Positions 54,941 through 63,549 of a DNA stretch of 64,000 nt are shown piece by piece. A model generated the notes under the pieces. That model ran no database searches and had not been told where the DNA came from. It saw nothing but the letters and a program-made list of their open reading frames with translations. Where the stretch lies: positions 2,170,001-2,234,000 of the forward strand of contig NZ_CP141614.1 of assembly GCF_035593265.1 (NCBI RefSeq), given 5' to 3'. The position numbers and the translations under genes are program-made. How positions within the stretch are numbered: position 1 is the first letter of the stretch; each line of letters opens with the position of its first letter. Source of the stretch: Limnochorda sp. LNt. Lineage in GTDB: Bacteria > Bacillota > Limnochordia > Limnochordales > Geochordaceae.

Positions 54941-55726
54941 TCAGCGACGCAGAGCCGGATGTCTCGCCAGCGGCCCCACCTGCACCCCCGCCGCTTCCAG
55001 TCGCCGCCGCACGGCCCGGGCGATGGCGGACGCCCCCGGCTGATCGCCGTGGATGCACAGGGTGTGCACCGAGGTCTCGACCTCCACCCCTTCGGCCGAC
55101 CGCACCCGGCCCTCCCGCACCATCCGCACGGCCTGCTCGGCGGCGCGCTCCGGCTCCTCGATGACCGCTCCCGGCTGCCCGCGTGCCACCAGGCCCCCGT
55201 CGGCCCGATACCGCCGGTCGACGAACCCCTCCCACGCCACCGCCAGCCCCGCCGCCTCCGCCACCTTCGCCAGCCGGCTACCCCGGATGGCCAGCACCAC
55301 CAGCCCCGGGTCGAAGGAGGCGACCGCCGCCACCACCGCCCGCGCCACCGCCTCGTCGTACAGCGCCGCGTGATAGAGGGCTCCGTGGGGCTTGACGTGC
55401 TGCAGCGCCACGCCCTCCGCCCGGCAGAAGGCCGCCAGGGCGCCGATCTGGTAGAGCACGTCGGTGCGCAGCTCCTCGGGGCTCAGCGCCATGGCGCGCC
55501 GCCCGAAGCCCACCCGATCGGGATAGCCGACGTGCGCTCCGATGCCGAGGCCCGCCCGTGCCGCCCGCTGCACCGTGCGGGCCATCACCCGGGGATCCCC
55601 CGCGTGGAAGCCGCAGGCGACGTTGACCGACGTGACGACCTGCATCAGGGCCTCGTCGTCGCCGATGGCATAGGCGCCGAAGCCCTCCCCCACGTCCGCG
55701 TTGAGGTCGACGTAGTGCGCCGCCAT
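54941..55726 (-). CDS. pxpA: 5-oxoprolinase subunit A-like protein (LamB/YcsF family)
   Basis: A 261-residue protein of the LamB/YcsF family, starting VDLNADVGEGFGAYAIGDD and containing VTSVNVACGFHAGDPRVM near 32-49, GAHVGYPDRVGFGRR near 64, LQHVKPHGALYH near 107 and TSVHTLCIHGDQPGA near 222. The conserved Asp, His and Glu residues for metal-dependent amide chemistry are present. In the PxpABC enzyme this subunit works with PxpB and PxpC to open 5-oxoproline using ATP; neither partner is in the window. The ATG at 55726 has GGAGGGGGAG upstream. It lies upstream of the nanE-type gene on the same strand, but the gap of about 190 bp makes co-transcription uncertain. Confidence 0.92.
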   Translation of the reverse strand: MAAHYVDLNADVGEGFGAYAIGDDEALMQVVTSVNVACGFHAGDPRVMARTVQRAARAGLGIGAHVGYPDRVGFGRRAMALSPEELRTDVLYQIGALAAFCRAEGVALQHVKPHGALYHAALYDEAVARAVVAAVASFDPGLVVLAIRGSRLAKVAEAAGLAVAWEGFVDRRYRADGGLVARGQPGAVIEEPERAAEQAVRMVREGRVRSAEGVEVETSVHTLCIHGDQPGASAIARAVRRRLEAAGVQVGPLARHPALRR

Positions 55727-55802
55727 GTGGCTCCCCCTCCCCACGGATGCCGGGCCCCGCAGGCTCGACGGAGCCGGGCCCCACCCCACTCGCTCGGCCG
55801 CC

Positions 55803-56432
55803 CTACCGCTCGAGGGCCTGGCGGCCCGCCAGCACCCAGCGCGCCACCGTGACGACCCGCCGCCCCAGGTAGCGGCACGCCTGCCGGGCCTCATCGCTCA
55901 ACGGCGGCTCGCCCCCGTTGGCCGTGAAGCTGACGCCGTACGGGTTGCCGCCCGCCGCGAAGACGGCCGGGTCGGTGTAGCCGGGGCCGACGATGAGGCA
56001 TCCCCAGTGGTACAGCACGTTGTACAACGCCAGGAGCGTGGCCTCCTGGCCCCCGTGCGGGTTGGAGGCCGTCGTCAACCCCGCCGCGACCTTGTTGGCC
56101 AGCTTGCCCTGGCCCCACAGCGGTCCGGTGCTGTCCAGGTACTGCTTGAGCTGCGACGCCACGTTGCCGTACCGGCTGGGCGTGCCGAAGACGTAGGCGT
56201 CCGCCCACTCCAGGTCGTCGTGACCCGCCAACGGGATCTGACGGGTCGCCTCGAGGTGCGCCTTCCAGACGGGGTTCTTCTCCACCGCCTCGGGCGGCGC
56301 CAGCTCGGCCACCCGGCGCAGGCGTACCTCGGCCCTCGCCTCCCGAGCCCCGGCCTCCACCTCCTTCGCCATGCGATAGGTGGTGCCGGTGGAGCTGTAG
56401 TAGACGATGAGCACTCGGGGCGTCACGGCCAT
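55803..56432 (-). CDS. wrbA: WrbA-type NAD(P)H:quinone oxidoreductase (flavodoxin fold)
   Basis: A 209-residue flavodoxin-like protein: FMN phosphate loop IVYYSSTGTTYRMAKEVEAG near 9-28, ADAYVFGTPSRYGNVASQLKQYLDSTG near 76-102 (WrbA signature), and KVAAGLTTASNPHGGQEATLLALYNVLYHWG near 113. Length and motifs match WrbA, which reduces quinones by two electrons and limits redox cycling. The ATG at 56432 has AGGAGG nine bases upstream and lies one base after the stop of the alpha/beta hydrolase gene, so the two are an operon. Confidence 0.95.
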   Translation of the reverse strand: MAVTPRVLIVYYSSTGTTYRMAKEVEAGAREARAEVRLRRVAELAPPEAVEKNPVWKAHLEATRQIPLAGHDDLEWADAYVFGTPSRYGNVASQLKQYLDSTGPLWGQGKLANKVAAGLTTASNPHGGQEATLLALYNVLYHWGCLIVGPGYTDPAVFAAGGNPYGVSFTANGGEPPLSDEARQACRYLGRRVVTVARWVLAGRQALER

Positions 56433-57603: not shown

Positions 57604-58002
57604 CGGATCCCCCCGTCGACAGACCTTCGAAGCGCCTCGACCGGCGCGGCCTGTCCTCCCGGATCCTATGAGCGCGGCCGGGTCCCGAGGGCGGTTTGAC
57701 CCGGGCCCCTTCCAGGGCTTACAATGAATGCGAGTGCCTGCACGCGGGCACCGCCAGCTTCCAGGTCCGCGCCGACGCCGCGGGCCGCCGATGCGCCGAA
57801 TCCGCCCGGGATCCCAGCGGGCGGAGCGGGGGACCCAGGTATCGGGGCGAATTCGGCACGATCCGGTGCCGATAGGGCAACCTCGGCTGCCCGAGCCCGT
57901 CAGCTAACCTCGCAGGCGTGGCAGAGGGGGCGAGCCCGAGGGGTCTTTGGACCCCGGGGATCGCGATCCCCGGGGATTTTCGTCTTTGGAGGTGCTTGCG
58001 CC
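57604..58002. other. Divergent intergenic region ahead of the permuted binding-protein operon
   Basis: About 400 bp between a minus-strand hydrolase gene and a plus-strand ABC operon. The right end holds two overlapping hairpins (57940-57975). The plus frame of the binding protein is open throughout but Pro/Ala/Arg-rich and lacks a start with ribosome site before 58003. A TTACAAT sequence at 57719-57725 could be a plus-strand -10 box. Confidence 0.5.
57940..57975 (+). promoter_or_regulatory. Two mutually exclusive hairpins in the leader of the permuted binding-protein gene
   Basis: Hairpin 1 is GGGGTC-TTTG-GACCCC (57940-57955). Hairpin 2 is a perfect 24-bp palindrome (arms CCCCGGGGATCG and CGATCCCCGGGG, 57952-57975) followed by ATTTT. 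They share CCCC at 57952-57955 and cannot form together. The ribosome site GGAGG and ATG follow within 30 nt. The layout could be an attenuator or an mRNA-stabilising element. Confidence 0.45.
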
Positions 58003-59592
58003 ATGGCTTGCCGCGTGGTCCGCTCGCTTCGAGGTTCTCCGATCGGTATGGCCCTCCTGGCGCTGGCCGTCGCCCTGGCCCTCGTGGGATGGCAGGGGCC
58101 GGCCGGCTCGCCGGTACGGGCCGAAGCCGGCCAGGTGCTGCGCATCGTGCTCGACGGCGCCAAGAACCGGGAGGCCGAGCTCCAGGCCGTCGCCGGCTAC
58201 CTGCGGCAGATCGGCGTCGACGCGCAGGTGCGGATCTGGGAGTACCAGACGCTGATCGCCGAGGCCCAGCGGGGCACCCGTGACGCCTACGCCACCGACT
58301 GGGGCAGCTCCACCTTCTCGCCCTTCGACCTGGCCATCCCCAAGCTGCGTACCGGCGATCGCGGCAACTTCTCCTTCTACTCCAACCCCGAGGTGGACCG
58401 GCTCTTCGAGCGGGCATCCACCACCGTCGACGAGGCGGCCGCCCTCGACGCGTATCACCGCGCTCAGCGCATCCTCTACGAGGACGCCCCGTGGATCTTC
58501 GGCTACTACCTCGACACCATCGAGGCCGCCTCGGACCGGGTGCGCAACTGGCGGCCTTCGGTCGACAACCGCACCAACCTCCACGACGTGGCGCTGGAGG
58601 GTGGCGACACCCTGGTGGTGGGCATGCGGGCCGACCGCATCCAGAGCTTCGACCCGGCCGACCACCGGGACCGCGACACCGAGACGGTGCTGCGCAACAT
58701 CTTCGACGGCCTGGTGACGCGCACCCCCGACGGGCAGGTGGTACCCGAGATCGCCGCGTCGTGGGAGCAGCCGGATCCGACCACGTACATCTTCCACCTG
58801 CGACGGGGCATCCGCTTCCACGACGGCGAGCCGCTGACCGCCGAGGACGTCGTCTTCACCTTCGAGCGGATCCTGTCGCCCACCGGGCTCGAGGGACGCC
58901 AGTCGCCGCGCCTGGGGCTGCTGGGCCCCCTGCAACGGGTCGAGGCCCTCGACGACTACACGGTGAGGATGACGCTGCGCGACCCGTCGCCGGTCTTCCT
59001 GCAGCTGCTGGTGCACACCCAGATCGTGCCCAAGGACTACCTGACCCGGGTCGGCCTGGCCGGGTTCGTGCAGCATCCGGTGGGAGCCGGGCCCTTCAAG
59101 TTCGTGCAGGGCCGGCTGGATGGCGACATCGTGCTGGAGCGCTTCGACGACTATTACGGTGGCTCGCCGGAGTTGCCGCCCGTGGGGCCGGCGCCGTTGC
59201 GGCGGGTCGTCTTCCGCATGATGCCCGAGCCGGGCACCCGCATCGCCGCGCTGCTGGCCGGCGAGGTGCACATCATCCACGAGGTGCCGCCCGATGCCGT
59301 GGCGCAGCTGGAGCGGGCCCGGGGCGTGCAGGTGCAGGTGGCGCCGGGCACGCGCCTTTACGCCATCGAGCTCAACAACCGCCGCCTGACCGACCCGAGG
59401 GTGCGCCAGGCGCTCAACCACGCCGTCGACTGGGAGACCATCCTGCGCGAGCTCTACCGGGGCTACGCGCACCGGGTCGCCACGGCGCTGTTGCCGAGCG
59501 GCTTCGGGTACGACGAGACGCTGCAGCCCTACCCGTACGACCCGGACCGGGCCCGGGAGCTGCTGCGCGAGGCGGGCTACGTTGTCCGGTGA
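58003..59592 (+). CDS. Peptide-type ABC binding protein with circularly permuted halves
   Basis: A 529-residue exported protein of the SBP_bac_5 class in reversed order. After a signal peptide (about 10-40) comes what is normally the C-terminal half (45-199): AVAGYLRQIGVDAQVRIWEY, NFSFYSNPEVDRLFERA, RILYEDAPWIFGYYLDTI and the usual terminal segment NRTNLHDVAL. Then, with no stop, follows what is normally the mature N-terminus (200-529): GGDTLVVGMRADRIQSFDPA, GLVTRTPDGQVVPEIAASWE, FHLRRGIRFHDGEPLTAEDV, ending YDPDRARELLREAGYVVR. The end (EAG-YVVR) and the start of the permuted half (EAG-QVLR) are similar, so the cut is at one point of the ancestral chain. The ATG has GGAGG upstream. Two permease genes follow, overlapping by 11 bp. 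Confidence 0.9.
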   Translation: MACRVVRSLRGSPIGMALLALAVALALVGWQGPAGSPVRAEAGQVLRIVLDGAKNREAELQAVAGYLRQIGVDAQVRIWEYQTLIAEAQRGTRDAYATDWGSSTFSPFDLAIPKLRTGDRGNFSFYSNPEVDRLFERASTTVDEAAALDAYHRAQRILYEDAPWIFGYYLDTIEAASDRVRNWRPSVDNRTNLHDVALEGGDTLVVGMRADRIQSFDPADHRDRDTETVLRNIFDGLVTRTPDGQVVPEIAASWEQPDPTTYIFHLRRGIRFHDGEPLTAEDVVFTFERILSPTGLEGRQSPRLGLLGPLQRVEALDDYTVRMTLRDPSPVFLQLLVHTQIVPKDYLTRVGLAGFVQHPVGAGPFKFVQGRLDGDIVLERFDDYYGGSPELPPVGPAPLRRVVFRMMPEPGTRIAALLAGEVHIIHEVPPDAVAQLERARGVQVQVAPGTRLYAIELNNRRLTDPRVRQALNHAVDWETILRELYRGYAHRVATALLPSGFGYDETLQPYPYDPDRARELLREAGYVVR

Positions 59593-60607
59593 GTCGCGAT
59601 CCCTGAGGGTCCTGCGCCGGTTGCTGGCCGCCATCCCGCTGGCGACGGGCATCGTGCTGGTCACGTTCGTCTTGCTGCGCCTGCTGCCGGGCGACCCCGT
59701 CGACATCATGATGGGCCAGGCCGGCAACGTCAGCGAGGTCGAGATCGAGACGCTGCGCCGCCAGCTGGGGCTCCATCGGCCTATCTGGGCGCAGGCGGCC
59801 CACTTCATCGAGGGGATGGTGCGGGGCGATCTGGGGCGGTCCATCCGGACCGCCCGCCCCGTCACCGCCCTCATCGGCGAGGCGCTCCCGGCCACGCTGG
59901 AGCTGGCGGCGGCCGCCCTGCTCTTCGCGGTGGCGGTGGCGGTCCCGGTGGGCGTGCTGTCGGCCGTGCGTCACCGGTCGGCGCTCGATCACCTGGCCAT
60001 GGGCACGGCCTTCGTGGGCATCTCCATGCCGGCCTTCTGGCTGGGGCTGGTGCTGATCCTGCTCTTCGGCGTGGCGCTGGGGTGGCTGCCCACGTCGGGG
60101 CGCATCGACCCGTCGCTGTCGGTGCCGACCGTGACGGGCTTCATGCTGGTCGACACCCTGCTGGCCCGGGACGTGGCCGCCTTTCGCTCGGCCCTGGAGC
60201 ACCTGGTGCTGCCCGCCGTGACGCTGGGCGCCGAGCTGGCGGCGGTGCTCTCCCGGGTCGTGCGCTCCAGCATGCTGGACGTGTTGCGGGCCGATTACGT
60301 ACGGGTGGCCCGGGCGAAGGGGGTGAACGAGTGGCGCGTCGTCTCCCGGCACGCCCTGCGCAACGCCTTGATCCCGGCGGTGACGGTGCTGGGGTTGCAG
60401 GTGGGGATCTTGCTGGGCGGCAACATGATCGTGGAGACGGTCTTCAGCTGGCCGGGCTTGGGGCGGCTGGTGGTTGGGGCCATCTTCGCCCGGGACTACC
60501 CGGTGGTGCAGGGCGCGGTGCTGCTCTACGCGCTGACGTTCCTGGCGGCCAACTTGCTGGTCGACGTGCTCTACACCGTCATCAACCCGCGCATGGCGAT
60601 GAGCTAG
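59582..60607 (+). CDS. ABC transporter permease, DppB/OppB type
   Basis: A 341-residue permease: a first helix in LRRLLAAIPLATGIVLVTFV, then RLLPGDPVDIMMGQAGNVSEVEI, LGLHRPIWAQAAHFIEGMVRGDLG, five further helices, and the EAA loop YVRVARAKGVNEWRVVSRHALRNALIP. It ends DVLYTVINPRMAMS. The TTG at 59582 lies inside the end of the permuted binding-protein gene, so translation is coupled. It probably serves that binding protein. No ATPase gene follows in the operon; shared ATPases, for example the fused OppDF, are possible. Confidence 0.93.
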   Translation: MSGESRSLRVLRRLLAAIPLATGIVLVTFVLLRLLPGDPVDIMMGQAGNVSEVEIETLRRQLGLHRPIWAQAAHFIEGMVRGDLGRSIRTARPVTALIGEALPATLELAAAALLFAVAVAVPVGVLSAVRHRSALDHLAMGTAFVGISMPAFWLGLVLILLFGVALGWLPTSGRIDPSLSVPTVTGFMLVDTLLARDVAAFRSALEHLVLPAVTLGAELAAVLSRVVRSSMLDVLRADYVRVARAKGVNEWRVVSRHALRNALIPAVTVLGLQVGILLGGNMIVETVFSWPGLGRLVVGAIFARDYPVVQGAVLLYALTFLAANLLVDVLYTVINPRMAMS

Positions 60608-60648: not shown

Positions 60649-61515
60649 ATGCCGGAGGGAGGCTCGCCCGGCCTGTGGGATCGGCTGCGGCGCCATCCGG
60701 TCGCGGCCGGCGCGCTGGTGGTGCTGGTCGGCTACGTCGTGATGGCCATCTTCGCGCCGGTCCTGGCGCCCTTCGAGCCGGATCGCTTCGTGCTGTCGGC
60801 GCGGCTGGCACCGCCGTGGCCGCTGGCGGGCTCCAAGCCGGGCCACTGGCTGGGCACCGACGAGCTGGGTCGCGACATCCTCTCCCGCATCATCTACGGG
60901 GCGAGGGTCTCGCTGGCGGTGGGCGCGGCGGCCGTGGCCATCTCGGCAGTGGTCGGCACGGCCCTGGGCGCGCTGGCCGGCTACCGGGGCGGGCGCCTCG
61001 ACCACGCGCTGTCGCGGGTGGCCGACCTGCTGATGGCCTTCCCCTACCTGCTCTTCTCGGTGCTGGTGATGGGGGTCATCGGGCCCGGCATCCCCAACCT
61101 GATCCTGGCCCTCTCCTTCAAGGCGTGGGTCGAGTTCTTCCGGCTGGCCCGGGGCGAGACCATGGCCCAAAAGGCGCGGGAGTACGTGGAGGCGGCTCGC
61201 GCCATCGGGCGCTCGCACGCCGGGATCCTGGTGCGCGAGATCCTGCCCAACGTCGCGCACACCCTGCTGGTGATGGCGACGCTGCGCACCGGCTACATGG
61301 TGCTGATGGAGGCGTCGCTGAGCTTCCTGGGGCTGGGCGCCCCTCCCGACGTGCCCGCCTGGGGCAGCATGGTGGCGGCGGGCCGGGAGTACCTGGTCAA
61401 CGCCTGGTGGGTCTCGACGATGCCGGGGCTCGCCATCCTGCTGCTGGTGATGGCCGTCAACGCGCTGGGGGAGGGGCTGCGCGACATCCTCGATCCCCGG
61501 CTCCGGCGGCACTGA
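60649..61515 (+). CDS. ABC transporter permease, DppC/OppC type
   Basis: A 288-residue permease with a first helix near 19-40 (VAAGALVVLVGYVVMAIFAPVLAPF), the DppC signature HWLGTDELGRDILSRIIYGARVSLAVG near 66-92, and five more helices. The EAA loop is YVEAARAIGRSHAGILVREILPNVAHT and the end is LGEGLRDILDPRLRRH. The ATG at 60649 has only a weak ribosome site (CGAGG); no better in-frame start is seen after the preceding stop 42 bp upstream. It completes the two-permease channel of the operon with the permuted binding protein. Confidence 0.93.
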   Translation: MPEGGSPGLWDRLRRHPVAAGALVVLVGYVVMAIFAPVLAPFEPDRFVLSARLAPPWPLAGSKPGHWLGTDELGRDILSRIIYGARVSLAVGAAAVAISAVVGTALGALAGYRGGRLDHALSRVADLLMAFPYLLFSVLVMGVIGPGIPNLILALSFKAWVEFFRLARGETMAQKAREYVEAARAIGRSHAGILVREILPNVAHTLLVMATLRTGYMVLMEASLSFLGLGAPPDVPAWGSMVAAGREYLVNAWWVSTMPGLAILLLVMAVNALGEGLRDILDPRLRRH

Positions 61516-61794: not shown

Positions 61795-63549
61795 GTGACC
61801 ACGTGGCTGATCCTCGCAGCCGCCGCCATCTACCTGGTCTCGTACCTGACGTACGGCAGGGGCCTGGCGCGCAACGTGGTGCGGGCCGACGACGCTCGCA
61901 AGACGCCTGCCCACGCGCTGTACGACGGCGTCGACTACGTGCCGGGCCATCCCCTGGCCATCTACGGGCACCACTTCGCCTCCATCGCCGGCGCCGGCCC
62001 CATCACGGGCCCGGCCATCGCCATCGTCTGGGGGTGGCTGCCGGCCCTGCTGTGGGTCTGGTTCGGCAACATCTTCATCGGCGCCGTGCACGACTACCTG
62101 TCGGTGATGGCCTCGGTGCGCAGCGAGGGCAAGTCGGTGCAGTGGATCGCGGGCAAGGTGATGAAGCCGCGCACGTCGCGGATCATGATGATCTTCGTCT
62201 ACCTGACCCTGGTGCTGGTGGTCGCGGCCTTCATGAGCGTGGCCAGCACCAACTTCGTCGGCAACCCCGGGGTGCCGACGTCCACGTTCCTGTTCATCGC
62301 AGGAGCCGTCATCTTCGGCCTGCTCTACTACCGTCTCAAGCTCAACTTCGCGCTGGCCACCATCATCGGCCTGGGTCTGGTCATCCTGGCCATGTGGCTG
62401 GGGTACGTCTGGCCGTGGCACGCCAGCTTCCACACCTGGGTCACCATCTCGGCGGTGTACGCCATCGTCGCCTCGAGCCTGCCGGTCTGGCTGCTGCTGC
62501 AGCCCCGTGACTATCTCAACTCCTACATCCTCTTCGTCGGCCTGGGGCTCGGGGTCGTCGCGCTGCTGGTCTCCTTCAAGGGCGTCGCCATCCCCGCCTA
62601 CACCGTCTGGAGCGCCCCGGCGGTGGGCAACGTGCCGTCGCCCTTCTGGCCGGCCATCCCGCTGGTCATCGCCTGCGGATCGCTGTCGGGCTTCCACGCG
62701 CTGGTGGCCTCCGGCACCACCTCCAAGCAGCTCGACAAGGAGAGCCACGGCCTGCCGGTGGGCTACGGCGGCATGCTGACGGAGGGCCTGTTGTCGACGC
62801 TGGTCGTGGTCTCGATGGGCGCCTTCGCCTTCCCCGTGCTGCAGCAGGTGGCCGACCGGGTGGCCGGCCTGGGTGTGTCGCTGACGCAGCTGGCGGGTGA
62901 CCGGGTCTACTTCGCCTTCAACGTCCTCAAGGCGGCCGGACCCATCGGAGGGGCCCTGGGCCTCTTCACCCGCAGCTACGGCGAGCTGCTGGGCAGCGTC
63001 TTCGGCGTGGGCGCATCCATCGGCGCGCTCTTCGCAGGGCTGTGGGTGACGGCCTTCGTCATGACCACCCTCGACACGGCCACGCGGCTGGGGCGCTTCA
63101 CCTGGCAGGAGCTGATGGAGCCGCTGCGCCAGTCCAACCCCGGCCTGTACCGGGTGCTGGCGGACCGCTGGGTGGCCGGTGCCATCGTCGCTGCCCTCGC
63201 GGCCTGGCTGGCGTGGGACGGGGCCTACACCACCCTGTGGCCCGCCTTCGCGGGGGCCAACCAGATGGTGGCGGCCGTCGCCATGCTGACCATGGCCATG
63301 TGGGTCGTCCGGGTGCAGCGCGCCTCCGGTGGCTACCGGTCGGCCGTCGTGGTCCCCGGGCTCTTCTTGTGGGTGACGGTCTTCGCGGGCGTGGTCTGGT
63401 ACCTGTGGGCGGTGCCGGCTTCGATGGTCATCAAGGTCATCTTCGCCGTCATGGCGGTGCTGTCGCTGTTGCTGCTGGTCGACTTCACCGCCTCGTACCG
63501 CGAGGCACGCATCGAGGCGGCCCCCGGCGTCGCGGCGGGAGGCCGCTAG
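61795..63549 (+). CDS. cstA: Carbon starvation protein CstA (peptide/pyruvate transporter family)
   Basis: A 584-residue polytopic membrane protein with about 16 helices. It has the CstA signatures LTYGRGLARNVVRADDARKTPAHALYDGVDYVP near 20-52, then YGHHFASIAGAGPITGPAIA near 60-79, GAVHDYLSVMASVRSEGKS near 102, SGFHALVASGTTSKQL near 300, and FGVGASIGALFAGLWVTAFVMTTLDTATRLGRF near 405-437. CstA proteins import peptides and/or pyruvate during carbon limitation. The GTG at 61795 has AGAGGAG about 10 nt upstream. It is followed after 2 bp by the small gene at 63552, a common pairing for cstA with a short companion ORF, though the companion here is of a different type. Confidence 0.95.
   Translation: MTTWLILAAAAIYLVSYLTYGRGLARNVVRADDARKTPAHALYDGVDYVPGHPLAIYGHHFASIAGAGPITGPAIAIVWGWLPALLWVWFGNIFIGAVHDYLSVMASVRSEGKSVQWIAGKVMKPRTSRIMMIFVYLTLVLVVAAFMSVASTNFVGNPGVPTSTFLFIAGAVIFGLLYYRLKLNFALATIIGLGLVILAMWLGYVWPWHASFHTWVTISAVYAIVASSLPVWLLLQPRDYLNSYILFVGLGLGVVALLVSFKGVAIPAYTVWSAPAVGNVPSPFWPAIPLVIACGSLSGFHALVASGTTSKQLDKESHGLPVGYGGMLTEGLLSTLVVVSMGAFAFPVLQQVADRVAGLGVSLTQLAGDRVYFAFNVLKAAGPIGGALGLFTRSYGELLGSVFGVGASIGALFAGLWVTAFVMTTLDTATRLGRFTWQELMEPLRQSNPGLYRVLADRWVAGAIVAALAAWLAWDGAYTTLWPAFAGANQMVAAVAMLTMAMWVVRVQRASGGYRSAVVVPGLFLWVTVFAGVVWYLWAVPASMVIKVIFAVMAVLSLLLLVDFTASYREARIEAAPGVAAGGR

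Follow-up and report, generated by a model that had tools for sequence, protein, structure and literature searches.

Within the 64,000 nucleotide stretch of DNA analysed here (the window), a complete gene on the plus strand at 58003–59592, with ATG at 58003 and stop codon TGA at 59590–59592, encodes a 529 residue SBP_bac_5 (cluster C) ABC-importer binding protein in which the two halves of the chain are swapped. Its open frame coincides exactly with that marked in the initial annotation, and a ribosome-binding site read from the sequence, GGAGGTG (57988–57994, plus strand), lies 8 nt 5′ of the ATG. The leader, on the same strand, contains a c-di-AMP riboswitch aptamer (ydaO/yuaA, RF00379) at 57784–57933, whose score of 79.8 bits over the complete model (positions 1–134) clears the gathering score of 38, and, in the interval between aptamer and gene, an intrinsic-terminator-like hairpin (57952–57975) with a 10-bp stem followed by ATTTTCGTCT. 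A sigma-70-like promoter match, TTGACC-18-TACAAT (57696–57725, plus strand), comes from a consensus scan only and agrees at 10/12 positions (shuffle mean 0.0). The long frame at 57724–58002, 5′ of the ATG, was rejected as part of the protein since it overlaps the terminator as well as the riboswitch and since 58003 is the start preceded by the ribosome-binding site. Downstream on the plus strand are the two permease genes to which the receptor gene had been described as coupled: permease B (DppB/OppB type, 59582–60607; BPD_transp_1, 151 bits), 11 nt of which are shared with the receptor gene, and permease C (DppC/OppC type, 60649–61515; start codon read from the sequence), with BPD_transp_1 and OppC_N matches. 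A gene of the carbon starvation protein family (CstA, 61795–63549) lies directly 3′ of the permeases, and a gene for 5-oxoprolinase subunit PxpA is found upstream on the opposite strand (54941–55894).

The mature receptor follows a putative signal peptide region (about residues 1–41, 58003–58125), assigned from its composition and without a lipobox. Residues 45–199 (58135–58599) correspond to the normal C-terminal part of SBP_bac_5 proteins and residues 200–529 (58600–59589) to the normal N-terminal part, as established for both segments by PF00496, alignment to solved structures and rotation of the chain, and for the second by alignment of the junction as well. The initial annotation had proposed just this arrangement, and its 199/200 boundary is right. 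In a form of the half-by-half search that it advised, the protein matches PF00496 twice in reversed order: residues 245–526 align to profile positions 1–278 (273.4 bits for the whole protein, cut-off 32.4), and the N-terminal part searched alone aligns to positions 294–363 at 23.5 bits, a score under the whole-protein cut-off of 32.4. Profile positions 294–363 come before 1–278, and the N- to C-terminal collinearity of the family is lost. The same inversion is seen with the structure 5u4o, where query residues 214–526 align to chain residues 55–359 and query residues 51–176 to chain residues 370–498, and 1uqw likewise aligns in two swapped pieces. When the mature chain is rotated at residue 157–158 (protein residue ~199), its alignment to a normal-order sister (L045) scores 1424 where the unrotated chain scores 847, and the 483 residues aligned are 54% identical. 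Because one rotation suffices to bring the entire chain into register with its normal-order relatives, the protein is a circular permutant. Annotation by family match alone overlooks permuted proteins of this type.

The permuted chain is predicted to adopt one confident fold, and the ordinary two-lobed clam-shell is expected. The AlphaFold2 model of the mature protein, computed from an input alignment that contained fragments of normal-order relatives, has a pLDDT of 95.8 and a pTM of 0.90 with no low-confidence segment; the model of L045 has 91.4 and 0.89, and after rotation the secondary structures of the two agree at 96% of aligned positions. The prediction speaks against halves that cannot join into one fold, an outcome named at the outset as grounds for abandoning the permuted reading. 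Foldseek alignment follows chain order, and the permuted model matches 1uqw over 340 columns only (TM 0.59), as against 500 columns (TM 0.92) for L045, which is the signature of a permutation. In oligopeptide-binding proteins the two termini normally meet beside the sheet of domain I, and a single uninterrupted stretch of chain, bounded by the two hinge segments, makes up lobe 2 (PMC10924461). Given that the cut falls within this continuous stretch, the permuted chain, too, would cross the hinge twice, in keeping with the strand order of the two models.

At the fusion point, NLHDVALE/GGDTLVVGM, no linker has been added, and the join brings together the normal C-terminus (e.g. DSRENMHDVYIEE in L045) and the mature N-terminus (GGGTIVIAL in normal form). 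The cut falls in a loop on the surface of lobe 2 that connects the helix ending EAG[YV] to the strand LxVVID (xLxVVID). In normal-order relatives from Chloroflexota this very loop holds an insertion, TDSDGDGFLDKEG, and therefore tolerates change. The initial placement of both termini in one domain holds for the old termini, which adjoin in domain I, but the new termini are in the other lobe. Several members (L032, L033, L037 and L128–L131) have a lipobox immediately ahead of the permuted start, which would put their lipid anchor on lobe 2. The similar sequences first noted on the two sides of the breakpoint, EAG-QVLR and EAG-YVVR, turned out to be peculiar to the window protein: the new start in close relatives reads ALAQDK-VLR, PAGDR-VLH or QAAGK-TLA, and the EAG repeat is absent from L009, L031 and others. 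Not being conserved, the repeat gives no evidence for duplication, and a breakpoint micro-duplication was rejected.

The permuted order recurs in 40 classified loci, a few of them truncated and some forming near-identical pairs, and its retention across these loci places the swap far above chance. Matches of both halves in permuted order occur in 24 of 398 genomes sampled across the phylum, in seven families and including several single-contig assemblies, so that the search for same-order homologues advised in the initial annotation yielded them even among single-contig genomes. Same-order orthologues are 52–90% identical, and that of a genome of the same genus (G001) is 78% identical. A genome scan with ORF analysis gave 16 same-order proteins alongside 74 of normal order, and in four single-contig genomes the profile pattern sets six permuted genes apart from collinear SBP_bac_5 genes. 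A long frame in G001 (L019, 854 residues), considered as a tandem, has its halves in normal order. Two permuted members (L042 and L043) lie on contigs labelled Deltaproteobacteria and Candidatus Nitrosymbiomonas, through lateral transfer or binning error. In a tree built from rotated sequences (66 rows) the permuted form is monophyletic (support 100/98) with a normal-order group, L045/L151/L152/L154, as its sister (100/99), and other normal-order relatives of the same class are placed elsewhere. The tree thus indicates that the permutation in the window subfamily has one origin, nested among normal-order relatives. The window genome itself has no normal-order orthologue, so the permuted form either replaced the normal one there or arrived laterally.

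SBP_bac_5 genes often occur in tandem, and the collapse of such a repeat could in principle produce a chimera of this kind, so the permuted gene might be an artefact of assembly or binning in which adjacent or tandem genes were wrongly joined. Relatives with normal order at a misassembled locus had been named as the finding that would overturn the permuted reading; same-order loci were found instead, 40 of them, with an identical junction in many assemblies and families including single-contig genomes, and the best SBP_bac_5 paralogue in the window genome is only 38% identical, leaving none closer to confuse. The same-order orthologues refute the artefact, whose probability we regard as negligible. 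Decay of the gene into a relic without receptor function is also very improbable. Single copies are indeed damaged (L137 has a TAG, L036 begins inside the C-part and L043 is frameshifted), but frames are intact in nearly all copies, motifs are invariant across the clade, and the permease coupling and riboswitch are conserved; NG86 dN/dS is 0.06–0.20 in nine pairs, values that indicate purifying selection on the permuted gene. These ratios, the orthologues, the permease coupling and the confident single-fold prediction together support the initial reading of a functional permuted receptor, with a putative role in transport. Fusion of two distinct paralogues, the C-part of one and the N-part of another, would yield the same order as permutation of one gene, and the halves are physically separate stretches. 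Yet each half, analysed alone, again yields a tree in which the permuted proteins form one clade (supports 96 and 95), and the C-half and full-length trees put L045/L151/L152/L154 adjacent to it, with an N-half tree that is compatible, if weakly resolved there; we consider such a fusion very unlikely. Permutation of a single gene is the preferred reading. As the breakpoint similarity is not conserved and no double-length intermediate (an ORF with two copies of a half) was seen among the relatives compared, the tandem duplicate that lost its outer halves, as first proposed, can be kept only as an inferred route.

Permease B lies directly 3′ of the receptor at all 40 permuted loci. No oligo_HPY ATPase gene adjoins the window operon, 11 matches lying elsewhere in the genome, and the operons of relatives have two ATPases each, as read from the sequence. 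The genomic neighbours of permuted and normal-order relatives alike include a B12/GlmL-like enzyme and peptidase C26, and the permutation has therefore probably left the substrate class unchanged. The importer is probably c-di-AMP-controlled and probably takes up peptides or related osmolytes. Assignment of an exact substrate through NCBIfam was rejected, as no equivalog cut-off (NikA, GsiB, DppA) is reached, the best being TIGR02294 with 160 bits against 393. That the importer takes up a compound outside the peptides and amino-acid osmolytes, such as a metal chelate or an opine, is the less likely case but deserves some weight: NikA- and GsiB-type models give the highest NCBIfam scores, all of them far under cut-off, the permeases score near Opp2B/Opp2C (nickel) models, and genes of the octopine-dehydrogenase family and for B12 enzymes lie close to some members. 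Against it stand the unreached equivalog cut-offs, control by a c-di-AMP riboswitch, which suggests K+, osmolyte or peptide homeostasis, and the peptidase C26 and 5-oxoprolinase neighbours, which fit peptides or gamma-glutamyl compounds.

The riboswitch, like the second permuted protein described below, is an addition to the initial annotation. Its RF00379 match is the sole one over the gathering score in the window genome; a match to anti-hemB RNA (20.4 bits, gathering score 49.5) is weak and was taken as chance. Among 32 permuted loci tested, some near-identical, RF00379 is present at 20, about 200–670 nt 5′ of the mature receptor, and missing at 12, so c-di-AMP regulation is not universal. 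It also precedes the normal-order sisters L151, L152 and L154, and the regulation is therefore probably older than the permutation. With a terminator following the aptamer, import would probably be off at high c-di-AMP, as expected for peptides, amino-acid derivatives and related osmolytes. Strains of Group B Streptococcus, Listeria and Staphylococcus without c-di-AMP are reported to have oligopeptide transporter mutations (PMC5919688), which makes c-di-AMP control of a peptide importer physiologically sensible, and the conserved riboswitch would tie the importer to osmotic signalling. A weaker RF00379 match in the window genome (G000:C1:451425-451633; L157, L158), at 35.3 bits and under the cut-off of 38, lies near genes for an octopine-dehydrogenase-family protein and a B12-binding protein, homologues of which flank the permuted operon in L039. 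Near a normal-order relative (L055:11731-13397) there are two c-di-AMP riboswitches, the first just 5′ of a peptidase C26 gene, which suggests that c-di-AMP regulation reaches further among the genes that surround these transporters.

A search of the window genome with the receptor gave a weak match spanning both halves, which led to a second permuted SBP_bac_5 protein outside the window (G000:C1:903805-905490, minus strand; L018/L162). It belongs to an OppA-like subfamily and likewise has the C-half before the N-half. In the window genome only, an in-frame TGA that may reflect nonsense mutation or erroneous sequencing separates the C-derived and N-derived parts; the permuted orthologues (L163, L164, L165, L177, L178 and L179–L183) have no internal stop. 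This second group spans families f1, f2, f127 and f64, its nearest normal-order relatives (L184–L191) are about 44–52% identical, and the cut falls in one and the same helix-strand loop in both permuted groups. A tree constrained to unite the two is worse by 586 log-likelihood units (AU p = 2.6e-6), so a common origin is rejected and the permutation is indicated to have occurred at least twice, the second event being independent of that in the window on this phylogeny; the data do not reject a single origin of the second group (p = 0.41). A normal-order protein on a long branch (L194, G082:C73:7199-8356) is placed, weakly supported, within the second group, which would reflect either misplacement or a return to normal order. 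We advance only tentatively, and as a rather doubtful proposal, that lobe 2 of cluster C binding proteins is prone to permutation in its EAGY helix-strand loop, a natural hot spot that two or more independent events, partly in the same families, have used because a tethered terminus moved to lobe 2 alters anchoring, export or permease docking.

We conclude, with high confidence, that the window gene encodes a naturally permuted receptor of a DppABC/OppABC-type importer, with a single origin, a fold predicted to be the normal one and probable control by a c-di-AMP riboswitch. The original termini, neighbours in domain I, are fused without a linker, and new ones have been opened in the lobe 2 surface loop between the EAGY helix and the xLxVVID strand. 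The permutation arose once in the window subfamily and would then have replaced the normal form. Attachment of the signal peptide, or of the lipid anchor in some relatives, would move from lobe 1 to lobe 2 with nothing else shifted, the clam-shell cleft closing on its ligand and passing it to permeases B and C, and riboswitch and terminator would turn import off when c-di-AMP is high. Counted against this explanation are the lack of an adjoining ATPase gene in the window operon and of the riboswitch at 12 of the 32 loci.

Cluster C is among the largest and best-studied receptor groups. Our literature search, which was incomplete and left subscription journals mostly uncovered, found no report of a permuted cluster C binding protein and precedents only for other clusters, so that natural permutation, already known in two other fold clusters, is apparently new in this one. 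The same loop was opened independently in two groups, both of which have close relatives of normal order, and the pair amounts to a natural experiment on whether the position of terminus and anchor affects receptor folding, tethering and docking, and the cut loop is a ready-made, evolution-tested site for engineering cluster C biosensors. After rotation the window protein is homologous over its full length to cluster C proteins of known structure (DppA 1dpe, GsiB 1uqw and 5u4o), with which it shares the predicted two-lobed fold and coupling to DppB/DppC-type permeases; it differs in chain order and in having its termini in lobe 2, whereas theirs are in domain I. Its leader has the full-length aptamer and terminator hairpin of a ydaO/yuaA riboswitch, but a Dpp/Opp-type importer lies downstream, whereas the targets named in PMC6488665 and PMC9960051 are K+ transporters and a cell-wall peptidase gene. 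Glycine-betaine-binding proteins (2B4L, 1R9L and 1SW1) are reported to form another circular-permutation family among substrate-binding proteins (PMC2395249), but one of low identity, found through structure comparison and in a fold cluster other than C. The circularly permuted glucose-binding protein TpMglB-2 (Tp0684) of Treponema pallidum is clade-conserved and functional in vitro (PMC4990184), and is, like the window protein, a natural permutant among ABC-importer binding proteins. It has, however, the Type I/cluster B fold, an unrelated sequence and a cut in the N-lobe, and it needs a fourth hinge crossing, whereas the count in the window protein would stay at two.
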